From the NCBI GenBank assembly GCA_017386585.1, contig JAFNPO010000034.1, positions 1 through 36,486 on the forward strand: a stretch of DNA of 36,486 bases. Reading direction: 5' to 3'. This document shows, one piece after another, positions 23,069 through 29,526 of the stretch (position 1 is the first letter of the stretch; each line of letters opens with the position of its first letter). The notes beneath the pieces are model-generated. The model did no database searches. It saw only the letters and a list, made by a program, of their open reading frames with translations, and was not told where the DNA came from. The DNA comes from Aeriscardovia sp. (GTDB lineage Bacteria > Actinomycetota > Actinomycetes > Actinomycetales > Bifidobacteriaceae). Made by a program: the position numbers and the translations under genes.

Positions 23069-23110
23069 CTTTTTATTATAGGCGAGGAACTTTTTATTAT
23101 AGGCGGGGAA
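23069..23110 (-). repeat. 21-bp tandem duplication carrying a perfect -10 element
   Basis: Two adjacent 21-bp copies (23069-23089 and 23090-23110) differ at one base (GGCGAGGAA against GGCGGGGAA). On the minus strand each contains TATAAT (23080-23075 and 23101-23096), upstream of the DUF3039 gene. Neither has an obvious -35 at normal spacing. This looks like a duplicated promoter core giving two transcript starts 21 bases apart. Confidence 0.75.
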
Positions 23111-24840: not shown

Positions 24841-24873
24841 ACCCCTGCCATCACTGGGTGGCGGGGTTTTTTG
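24841..24873 (+). terminator. intrinsic terminator between rpmF and rnc
   Basis: CCCC(T)GCCA at 24842-24850 pairs with TGGCGGGG at 24859-24866 (8 bp with one bulged T, eight-base loop), followed by six T at 24867-24872. It lies 27 bases after the rpmF stop and 67 bases before the rnc start, so rnc must depend on read-through or on a promoter not recognised here. Confidence 0.85.
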
Positions 24874-24939: not shown

Positions 24940-25812
24940 ATGGCACATAGCACCGATCGACAGAGCCTCGAGCACCTGAGGCAACAGGCCTCCTTCATCA
25001 AGCCGAAGAAAAAGCGCAGGCGTCGTCGCCATAAAAACAACAAGAGCAACCATTACGGCTTCGTCATGGACAACGGTGACGCGTTACTGGCCGCGCTGGG
25101 AACAACCCTCGAGCCAGGGCTGCTCGTCCACGCGCTCACCCACCGCTCCTTCGCACACGAGAATCCAGAGCTGCCTAATAACGAGCGATTGGAATTCCTT
25201 GGCGATGCGGTACTCGAATTCGTCGTCACCGAAACCATGTACGAGCGTTACCCGGACTGGCCGGAAGGACATCTAGCGAAGATGCGAGCCAAAGCTGTCT
25301 CGGAAGGCGCCCTGGCGACTGTTGGCCGTTCAAAGCTCCACCTGGGACCTTACATCCTGCTGGGCAAGGGCGAAGCCAAGGACAGCGGCCGGGACAAAGA
25401 TTCACTACTATGCGACACCGTGGAGGCCCTTATCGGTGCGGTCTTCGTGGCACACGGCATCGACGGAACGCGTTCGGTCATCCATCGCCTCCTAGACGAC
25501 ACCCTCGCGGAAGTCGCCAAGGAAGGCCCAGCGCTCGACTGGAAGACGGCGCTCGTTGTCCTCAGTCACCAGCTCGATATCCCCGAGCCGACATATCGGA
25601 TGGAAGTCGACGGCGACCTGACGACACCAACGTTCACCGCTCACGTGCTGCTCGACACCGGCACCGACCAACAGTGCAAAGTAGCAAGCGCCACGGGTCC
25701 CAGCAAGCGCAAGGCGCAACTGGCAGCCGCCAGAGAAGCCTACCTGATTCTGTCCAAAGACGAGAACGCCGACAAGCAGGTCAACGATTCCGCGACCTAC
25801 GACAGGCAGTAA
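24940..25812 (+). CDS. rnc: ribonuclease III
   Basis: Cleaves double-stranded RNA in rRNA precursors and some mRNAs. The 290-residue protein has a strongly basic N-terminal extension (KPKKKRRRRRHK, about 21-32) before the catalytic domain from about residue 45. The signature NERLEFLGDAVL is at 81-92, giving Glu82 and Asp89, and Asp159/Glu162 in DTVEALIGAV complete the metal site. The double-stranded RNA-binding domain covers about 205-278 with ATGPSKRKAQLAAAREA. The ATG follows AAGGAA; an internal ATG at codon 43 would remove the basic tail and is an alternative. Eukaryote-like basic extensions are not usual in E. coli-type enzymes. Confidence 0.95.
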   Translation: MAHSTDRQSLEHLRQQASFIKPKKKRRRRRHKNNKSNHYGFVMDNGDALLAALGTTLEPGLLVHALTHRSFAHENPELPNNERLEFLGDAVLEFVVTETMYERYPDWPEGHLAKMRAKAVSEGALATVGRSKLHLGPYILLGKGEAKDSGRDKDSLLCDTVEALIGAVFVAHGIDGTRSVIHRLLDDTLAEVAKEGPALDWKTALVVLSHQLDIPEPTYRMEVDGDLTTPTFTAHVLLDTGTDQQCKVASATGPSKRKAQLAAAREAYLILSKDENADKQVNDSATYDRQ

Positions 25813-25879: not shown

Positions 25880-25922
25880 GCCGACTCTAGAGTGCCGACT
25901 CTAGAGTGCCGACTCTAGAGTC
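25880..25922. repeat. three tandem 14-bp units each carrying the palindrome ACTCTAGAGT
   Basis: The 14-mer GCCGACTCTAGAGT occurs three times without gap or mismatch (25880-25893, 25894-25907, 25908-25921). Each holds the self-complementary decamer ACTCTAGAGT. It sits in the 121-base gap between the convergent ends of rnc and the ABC-F gene. First and third copies could pair as a 10-bp RNA stem on either strand, so a bidirectional terminator is one possible role. Confidence 0.85.
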
Positions 25923-25933
25923 TTATGTACCGT

Positions 25934-27847
25934 TCAGCTCTCGAGGAACTCCCCCAGCTTCATCCATTCGGACTCGAGGCTTTCAACCTGCGCGTCAACG
26001 TCCTGCAACTCGGCCGCAAGTCGACCCAGTTTCTCGTAGTCGTTCTTCTGCGCCTGCGCAGCCATTTGACTTTCCAAGTCCCGTTTCTGGTCGCGGAGCT
26101 TACCCAGTTTGCGCTCGATGGCCATGATGCGTTTACGGGCGGCATATTTGCGCCGGCGTATCTCCTTGCCATCATCGGTCATAGCTGGAGTGAACGCCCC
26201 GAGGATTGTATTCGCGGACTGATCAGGCTTCTCGCCTGTCGCGACTTCCAACTTGGCGGTCGCGACAGGCGTCTGGTTTGGCTCAGGAACACCTTTGGCC
26301 GCTCGAAAACCCTCGGCTTTACGACGGTCGGCCACAAGACCAAGGTACTGCTCCACACCGCCAGGCAGATGACGAATCTTGCCATCCATTAGAGCGAACT
26401 GCTGGTCGGTAACACGCTCCAGTAGATAACGATCATGGGACACGACGATAAGCGTGCCAGCCCAACTGTCAAGCAGGTCCTCCATAACGGCGAGCATGTC
26501 GGTGTCGAAATCGTTACCCGGTTCGTCGAGGATGAGCACATTTGGTTCGCTCAGTAGGATGAGCATAAGCTGCATTCGCCGCTTCTGACCGCCGGATAGA
26601 TCGCGTACAGGTGTCATCATCTGGGCCGGATTAAAGCCCAGGCGCTCGAGCAGGGCGGCCGGCGAATAGTTTTTACCGTCGATGGTGTACGAGGAATGGT
26701 AGCGTGTCAACACTTCGGCAACTTTGACGTCGCCCAGGGCTTCTATCTCATCCAACCGCTGGGAGAGCACGGCGAAACGCACTGTCTTACCAATCTTTAC
26801 ACAACCCGACGTCGGCTGGATGGACCCGTCGATGAGGCCCAGAAGCGTGGATTTACCGGCGCCGTTGGCGCCCACGATGCCGAAGCGGTCACCGGGGCCA
26901 ATGATCCAGTTGAGATGGTCGATGACTCTGCGCTTCTGAGCCGTGTCACCAATTTCGTACTCCTTCGTAACATCCTCCAGGCGCACTACGTCCTTGCCTA
27001 GGCGAGAGACAGCCATAGCTTTGAGTTCCAGCGACTCGCGCACCGGTGGCACGTCAGCGATAAGAGCCTTTGCCTCCTTGACGTGGAACTTCTGTTTGGT
27101 GGCCCGGGCGCGAGCGCCGCGCGTCAGCCAGGCGAGTTCCTTGCGCGCCAAGTTGCGGCGTCGCTGTTCGGTAATGCGTGCCTGCCGATCACGCTCAACA
27201 CGCTGCATAATGTAGGCCGAATAGCCACCTTCGAACGGATCAATGACGGCGTCGTGGACCTCCCACATACTGGTGCACACCTCGTCAAGGAACCAACGGT
27301 CGTGTGTGACAACCAGTAGAGCGCCGGAGCCGGCGGTCCAGCGGTTCTCCAGATGTTCAGCCAGCCAGTGGATGGTGGCGACGTCGAGATGGTTGGTCGG
27401 CTCGTCGAGAGCGAGGATGTCCCAGTCCTGTAGCAGCAGGCGCGCAAGATCGGCGCGACGGCGTTGACCGCCCGACAGCTCGCCAATCTTCGAATCCAGG
27501 GGAATGTCGGCCAGCAGAGTCTGAACGATGTCCCGCGAGCGCGGATCGGACGCCCATTCGTGGTCCTCGCGTTCCCCTAAGGCCGCCTGGCGGACGGTCG
27601 CATTGCCGTCCAGTTGGTCACGTTGACCGAGGAGGCCCATCGTCAGTCCTCTCCGGCGGTTGACGCGACCGTTGTCCGGCACCATCTGCCCCGATAGCAG
27701 CTTGAGAAGCGTAGACTTACCGTCGCCGTTGCGGCCAACGATACCGATGCGGTCGCCCTCCGACACGCCCTGCGTCACATCAGTGAAAACGGTTTTTGTT
27801 GCATAGGATAACGACAGGTGCTCGCACCCCAGATCGAAAACAGGCAT
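25934..27847 (-). CDS. ABC-F family ATPase, Uup-like
   Basis: Soluble twin-ATPase of the ABC-F type, acting on ribosomes or on DNA-linked processes rather than transport; there is no membrane segment. In 637 residues: Walker A GRNGDGKST at 38-46, LSGGQ at 124-128, Walker B ILALDEP at 144-150, an inter-domain linker with ARATKQKFHVKEAK at about 247-260, second Walker A GANGAGKST at 326-334, LSGGQ at 417-421 and LILDEPGND at 438-446. A C-terminal coiled coil (about 560-637, Lys/Arg/Glu/Gln rich) matches the Uup arrangement. Start at ATG 27847; an upstream in-frame extension overlaps the cysS region and is rejected. DEPGND replaces the more usual DEPTN in the second domain. Confidence 0.88.
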   Translation of the reverse strand: MPVFDLGCEHLSLSYATKTVFTDVTQGVSEGDRIGIVGRNGDGKSTLLKLLSGQMVPDNGRVNRRRGLTMGLLGQRDQLDGNATVRQAALGEREDHEWASDPRSRDIVQTLLADIPLDSKIGELSGGQRRRADLARLLLQDWDILALDEPTNHLDVATIHWLAEHLENRWTAGSGALLVVTHDRWFLDEVCTSMWEVHDAVIDPFEGGYSAYIMQRVERDRQARITEQRRRNLARKELAWLTRGARARATKQKFHVKEAKALIADVPPVRESLELKAMAVSRLGKDVVRLEDVTKEYEIGDTAQKRRVIDHLNWIIGPGDRFGIVGANGAGKSTLLGLIDGSIQPTSGCVKIGKTVRFAVLSQRLDEIEALGDVKVAEVLTRYHSSYTIDGKNYSPAALLERLGFNPAQMMTPVRDLSGGQKRRMQLMLILLSEPNVLILDEPGNDFDTDMLAVMEDLLDSWAGTLIVVSHDRYLLERVTDQQFALMDGKIRHLPGGVEQYLGLVADRRKAEGFRAAKGVPEPNQTPVATAKLEVATGEKPDQSANTILGAFTPAMTDDGKEIRRRKYAARKRIMAIERKLGKLRDQKRDLESQMAAQAQKNDYEKLGRLAAELQDVDAQVESLESEWMKLGEFLES

Positions 27848-27932
27848 ACGGTTTTTCGCTCTTCCTTTTCCATGTCTTTCTTTTGTTCCCCGCCCCTCGA
27901 CTTTACCGCCGCGGCTTGTCCCAAATGTTTTA

Positions 27933-27938
27933 TAGGCT
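27933..27938 (+). promoter_or_regulatory. candidate -10 element of cysS
   Basis: TAGGCT (within TATAGGCT) is followed by exactly seven bases and the cysS ATG at 27946. Only an AGG close to the ATG could act as a ribosome binding site, so a leaderless transcript is likely. No -35 at usual spacing. Confidence 0.4.
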
Positions 27939-27945
27939 CGCAGGC

Positions 27946-29526
27946 ATGGAAAGCATCGCGTCACCGGCATCCCTCCACGGCCTCGCATCCCGTCTAAGCC
28001 TTTATGACTCTGCCACACGCTCCCAAGCGCCGTTCGTCCCCCTTGTCCCCGGTAAAGTGAGTATGTACGTTTGCGGCGCCACTGTCCAAAGTTCCCCCCA
28101 CATTGGCCACATGCGTGCGGCCGTCGCCTTCGACGTGCTGCGCCGCTGGATGGAGAAACTCGGCTATCGAGTGGTTTTCGTGCGCAACGTGACCGACATT
28201 GACGACAAAATCCTGGTCAAAGCCAAGGAAGCCAGTCAGAAGTGGTGGGCGCGTGCCTATCACTACGAACGCGAGTTCACCCGTTCCTATGAGACCCTAG
28301 GCGTCCTGCCACCCACCTATGAACCGCGCGCCACCGGACACATGATCGACATGATCCAGCTCGTCCAGCGGCTCATCGACCGCGGACACGCCTACGTCGT
28401 CGAAAACCCTGACGGCACACCCAGCGGCAACGTCTACTTCGACGTCAGATCCTGGCCAGAGTACGGCGAACTAACGCATCAGAAGACCGGTACCCTCCCA
28501 GACAACGCCGATGAAGCAGCCGCACGCCCGGTGGACCCGTCCGTTGACGCTCCTCCAGCCGAAAAGACCGATAGGTCTAACCGCGCCGACGAAGATGTCT
28601 CCAGTAAGCGAGATCCCCGCGACTTCGCTCTGTGGAAAGCCCCCAAACCCACCGATCCAGACGACGCAAGCTGGCCGACCCCCTTTGGTAAAGGGCGCCC
28701 GGGCTGGCACCTGGAGTGCACCGCCATGAGCCACCGCTACCTCGGCGACGACTTTGATATCCACGGCGGCGGCCTCGACCTGCGCTTCCCACATCACGAG
28801 AACGAGATGGCACAATCCCGTGCCGCTGGATGGGGTTTCGCCCACCACTGGATGCACTCCGCCTGGGTCACCCAAAAAGGTGAAAAAATGAGCAAGTCTC
28901 TGGGCAACGGCCTATCCGTGGACCAGGTACTCGCTGACCATTCCGCCTGGGTCATTCGCTACGCGCTCGCTAGCGTGCATTACCGTTCGATGCTTGAGTG
29001 GAGCGCCGATTCCCTCGACGAAGCCGAGGCCGCGAGCGCTCGGGTTCGCAACTTTTTGGTATCCGCGAAGCGATTCACCGGCGTCCAGCCGTCGCGCGAG
29101 GAAGTCGTCTCCTTCCCTGCTGTCGAGCTACCGGTGGCTTTCAGCGATGCTATGAACGACGATGTCAACGTGGCCGGGGCGTTGGCAGCCGTGTTTAGTG
29201 CCATTCGCGATGGCAACTCTTTCATTGCCAACGGCAAGTTGTCCGATGTTCCGACTGTAGCTCGGATTCTGCTGCAGACGCGCGCCATGCTCGACGTCTT
29301 TGGACTCGATCCGCTTGATCCGCAATGGGTTGGCATCGAATCCGATTCCCGTGGCTGCGCCGAACGTAACGCTCTGAACGCACTCGTCTCCCGTCGGCTT
29401 GAAGCCCGTGCGCAGGCCCGTCACGACCGTGACTTCGTCACCGCTGATGCTATCCGTAGCGAACTCGCTGAATCGGGTATCGCCATCAAAGACGGTGATA
29501 CGGGTTCTACGTGGGAACTGAAGTAA
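27946..29526 (+). CDS. cysS: cysteinyl-tRNA synthetase
   Basis: Class I synthetase charging tRNA-Cys. The 526-residue protein has Cys43 in YVCGATV and HIGH at 52-55, Cys258 in HLECTAM and His/Glu in FPHHENE (about 281-287) as zinc ligands, and KMSKS at 314-318. Compared with the 461-residue E. coli enzyme it carries an acidic, Ala/Pro/Asp-rich insertion at about 185-222 between the two halves of the catalytic domain, followed by DFALWKAPKPTDP. An open frame continues 50 codons upstream but overlaps the divergent ABC-F start; the ATG at 27946 gives the normal N-terminus. The C-terminus carries the DRDFVTADAIRSELAESGI segment of CysRS. Confidence 0.95.
   Translation: MESIASPASLHGLASRLSLYDSATRSQAPFVPLVPGKVSMYVCGATVQSSPHIGHMRAAVAFDVLRRWMEKLGYRVVFVRNVTDIDDKILVKAKEASQKWWARAYHYEREFTRSYETLGVLPPTYEPRATGHMIDMIQLVQRLIDRGHAYVVENPDGTPSGNVYFDVRSWPEYGELTHQKTGTLPDNADEAAARPVDPSVDAPPAEKTDRSNRADEDVSSKRDPRDFALWKAPKPTDPDDASWPTPFGKGRPGWHLECTAMSHRYLGDDFDIHGGGLDLRFPHHENEMAQSRAAGWGFAHHWMHSAWVTQKGEKMSKSLGNGLSVDQVLADHSAWVIRYALASVHYRSMLEWSADSLDEAEAASARVRNFLVSAKRFTGVQPSREEVVSFPAVELPVAFSDAMNDDVNVAGALAAVFSAIRDGNSFIANGKLSDVPTVARILLQTRAMLDVFGLDPLDPQWVGIESDSRGCAERNALNALVSRRLEARAQARHDRDFVTADAIRSELAESGIAIKDGDTGSTWELK

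Follow-up and report, generated by a model that had tools for sequence, protein, structure and literature searches.

The gap between rnc and a convergent ABC-F gene in this Aeriscardovia genome contains three identical copies of a 14-bp unit, and we think it very probable (roughly 0.87) that the array arose when one 14-bp intergenic stretch was recently triplicated in tandem in this lineage alone, making it a short minisatellite. The window referred to throughout is the whole 36,486-nucleotide stretch of DNA that was analysed. The features involved are as follows.

25060..25812, + strand: rnc, ribonuclease III; start approximate, stop codon ends at 25812; NCBIfam TIGR02191, E 6.9e-57, with relatives found by search
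25880..25893, no strand assigned: array copy 1, 14-bp unit GCCGACTCTAGAGT; from the sequence and Tandem Repeats Finder
25894..25907, no strand assigned: array copy 2, 14-bp unit GCCGACTCTAGAGT; from the sequence and Tandem Repeats Finder
25908..25921, no strand assigned: array copy 3, 14-bp unit GCCGACTCTAGAGT; from the sequence and Tandem Repeats Finder
25897..25922, + strand: hairpin from copies 2 and 3 and the C that follows them, GACTCTAGAGT-GCCG-ACTCTAGAGTC; prediction only, 11-bp stem and 4-nt loop
25934..28018, - strand: ABC-F family ATPase gene, convergent with rnc; start approximate, stop codon 25934-25936; NCBIfam NF000355, E 7.7e-109

The three copies of GCCGACTCTAGAGT run head-to-tail from 25880 to 25921, all identical and without gaps. 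Tandem Repeats Finder gives a period of 14, 3.0 copies, 100% matches and no indels, which bears out the perfect triple repeat of the original prediction. The end at 25922 given there takes in one C past the array and thereby lengthens the last palindrome to GACTCTAGAGTC. The three-copy array is far beyond chance. The window's longest lag-match run at periods 10-30 is 28, whereas 200 versions of it simulated with an order-2 Markov model average 9.9 and reach 14 at most. Each unit contains a perfect 10-bp palindrome. By itself, such a palindrome is unremarkable, as the window holds 46 of them, the array's three included.

The array is contained in the 121-nt gap between rnc on the + strand and ABC-F on the - strand, and the description of these genes as convergent is correct. 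No uninterrupted reading frame belonging to the gap itself is evident across it. A coding repeat was rejected on that ground, in agreement with the earlier remark that no coding explanation exists. The best NCBIfam match of the ABC-F product, ribo_prot_ABC_F, scores 364.8 bits, under the curated cut-off of 380, and searching genome_contigs with the protein returned distant relatives only. The protein was matched in 121 of 121 family genomes. Since every family genome searched gave a match, the gene at 25934-28018 is probably a housekeeping member and not an acquired resistance gene.

The history of the array can be read against the nearest species, G002, in which rnc is 89% and ABC-F 88% identical and which is syntenic with the window over nearly its full length at a DNA identity of about 80-88%. 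At the corresponding position of its syntenic gap, G002 has one diverged unit, GCCGGCTATAGAGC, which agrees with GCCGACTCTAGAGT at 11 of 14 positions. The context is GGA-GCCGGCTATAGAGC-CTT in G002 versus GGA-(GCCGACTCTAGAGT)x3-CTT in the window, and the ABC-F end of the gap is alignable too. In this comparison of two alignable sequences, the window and G002, with one genome per species, the gap is 92 nt in G002 versus 121 nt in the window, a difference of two units and one base. The other member of the genus, G001, is AT-richer, and its rnc/ABC-F gap is 57 nt of unrelated sequence with no unit. In the other family members found to have rnc beside ABC-F, the gap is 14 nt or several hundred bases. 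Because G002 has one unit and G001 has none, the three-copy array appears to be lineage-specific and is most simply derived from one ancestral unit. Because the copies are 100% identical while the remainder of the gap has diverged from G002, the event is presumably recent.

In the sequence of events that we propose, a pre-existing single unit would have been duplicated, and three perfect units would then have arisen as replication slipped between the identical copies. The repeat at lag 14 stops at the array edges, leaving exactly 3.0 copies, and for that reason the initial duplication cannot be seen directly. The one-copy state in G002 and the three-copy state in the window are there in the two sequences; slippage as the mechanism, the recency of the event and an absence of selection are what we infer from them. 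The polarity depends on one sister and one outgroup without the unit, and a loss of copies in G002 is a less probable alternative.

The array was found nowhere else. GCCGACTCTAGAGT has three matches in its own genome, all inside the array. A 25-base probe spanning two units, allowing up to 3 mismatches, matched none of 58 relatives from the genus, family and order, and exact two-copy patterns were not found in genome_contigs (a large genome collection) or viral_contigs. A family-wide conserved element was rejected on these results. The decamer ACTCTAGAGT has no exact copy and four single-mismatch sites elsewhere in the genome, a total below that of the reversed control pattern, and a dispersed repeat or regulon was rejected as no further exact site exists in the genome. 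A known RNA family was likewise rejected: Rfam returned nothing above a gathering score, only one chance-level match outside the array, at 13.4 bits against 90. In the paper library that was searched, no publication prints the repeat sequence. The original prediction had attributed the perfect identity to recent expansion or strong constraint. The single diverged unit at the matching position in G002 supports the first of these, and the second finds no support in an array unique to its own genome among those searched. The search of the genome and relatives that it had proposed thus shows a difference in copy number, with one diverged unit in the sister, but no second array. It had also held that a random unconserved repeat of one isolate would tell against it, and as far as conservation goes, that is largely what was found.

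Short tandem duplication is ordinary in this genome, since there are several other instances in the sequence surveyed (the window and 38 genome stretches, 284 kb readable, several small contigs reading as N). Only 2.8 kb away, at 23069-23110, Tandem Repeats Finder reports a 21-bp unit, CTTTTTATTATAGGCGAGGAA, in two copies at 95%, and G002 is single-copy at the homologous place. The 284 kb of readable own sequence also has another three perfect two-copy tandems, their units 14-25 bp long. One contig (G000:C7, L071) opens, at positions 1-122, with a 9-bp unit, CCTGTTGCG, perfectly repeated 13.6 times. Set against the view of an ordinary event, a unit of this length in three perfect copies occurs once only in the readable sampled sequence. 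PMC2884548 proposes short-repeat slippage as the cause of much small-scale variation of this kind, and such slippage is known to produce small variable segments in bacteria.

Two side observations concern these other repeats. The 23069-23110 repeat is in the gap preceding a + strand ORF, and its unit contains a TATTATA-like sequence, so that the repeat could double a promoter element. The CCTGTTGCG array is perhaps a coding repeat of three codons that ended the assembly.

The predicted stem grows from 4 bp with one unit to 11 bp with two. On the + strand, the hairpin at 25897..25922 folded alone has a predicted energy of -17.2 kcal/mol and is followed by TTATGT; the two-copy hairpin on the - strand is predicted at -15.8 kcal/mol. 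The original prediction that two copies can pair in RNA of either strand is therefore matched by the folding model, with a stem one base pair longer than the 10 bp proposed. The array is separated from the stop codon of rnc by 67 nt and from that of ABC-F by 12 nt, and RNA of either gene would have the hairpin shortly past its stop codon. These are the grounds for supposing that the array is a terminator or a 3'-end stabilising hairpin for the rnc and/or ABC-F transcript, and that a strengthened hairpin is why the expansion was retained, the single unit of G002 being predicted at only -3.7 kcal/mol. The equivalent gap of G001 (L008, 2251-2307) also has a long hairpin with a T-run after it, the canonical terminator layout, and GGCT/AGCC in G002 versus GACT/AGTC here makes one compensatory-looking pair. 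We nevertheless consider this explanation unlikely. The stem is as stable as an intrinsic terminator calls for (11 bp, predicted -17.2 kcal/mol), but the T-run that should follow it is absent on both strands, the + tail being TTATGT. A terminator scan does not list the site, although it lists a canonical terminator with TTTTTT at 24843-24866, after rpmF (a name taken from reading the small upstream protein, not from a family search). Compared with shuffled sequence, the full gap folds only modestly better (z -1.58 and -1.74), and the strong two-copy hairpin is absent in G002. Because it has no T-run, unlike the rpmF terminator, the predicted hairpin may at most be a weak terminator or a 3'-end or exonuclease block for the rnc and ABC-F messages.

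Nothing indicates that the array is kept by selection for a hairpin role. With tandem triplication as the explanation, the hairpin would be a by-product: the unit happened to contain a palindrome, and repeating it made a hairpin-forming sequence. The transcript-end signal of the rnc/ABC-F gap seems to turn over fast between species, as in G001 it consists of a compact hairpin and T-runs. It is quite improbable that slippage at the palindromic unit made a working bidirectional 3'-end hairpin for rnc and ABC-F de novo, possibly one that RNase III cuts. If true, it would mean that tandem triplication had given rise to a transcript-end element, with RNase III possibly cutting its own message.

The unit resembles the GTCGACTCTAGAG polylinker. 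The genome is a draft in 138 contigs with an estimated contamination of about 6%, and tandem repeats are liable to assembly error (PMC6868369). An assembly or adapter artefact is still very improbable. The unit itself is taken as real because a diverged native copy stands at the matching place in another species, and typical reads are longer than the 42 bp of the array; the count of three in a draft assembly is putative. Least likely is that the palindromes serve a dimeric DNA-binding protein as operators, the phased array of the original prediction: a perfect 10-bp palindrome does recur in each of three copies, but the array is unique among the genomes searched and sits where both genes end, exact matches to the decamer occur nowhere else in the genome, the palindrome is imperfect in the single unit of G002, the window holds 46 such palindromes, and steps of 14 bp do not amount to full helical turns and would put the sites off one helix face.

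Among known systems, the array is most like bacterial minisatellites or VNTR loci, with a short non-coding unit in the usual range of ~10-60 bp, identical head-to-tail copies (3.0 copies, 100%) and a copy number that differs between close relatives (three in the window, one diverged in G002). It is unlike them in having only three copies of 14 bp. Enterobacterial palindromic units or BIMEs (REP) are similarly intergenic, palindromic and clustered, but those of E. coli, as given in PMC2884548, are 30-37 bp and dispersed over the genome, whereas here there is a single locus in place of many dispersed copies. Intrinsic terminators between convergent genes are likewise sequences able to form a hairpin where the two genes end; the array differs in lacking a T-run, and its strong hairpin is not common to G002.

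As it stands, the array matters little; it is one more short intergenic tandem array. It is also a possible strain-typing locus. What it offers is a clean one-copy/three-copy pair, in which a short palindrome, once expanded in tandem, goes from a predicted 4-bp hairpin to an 11-bp one beside the ends of genes.
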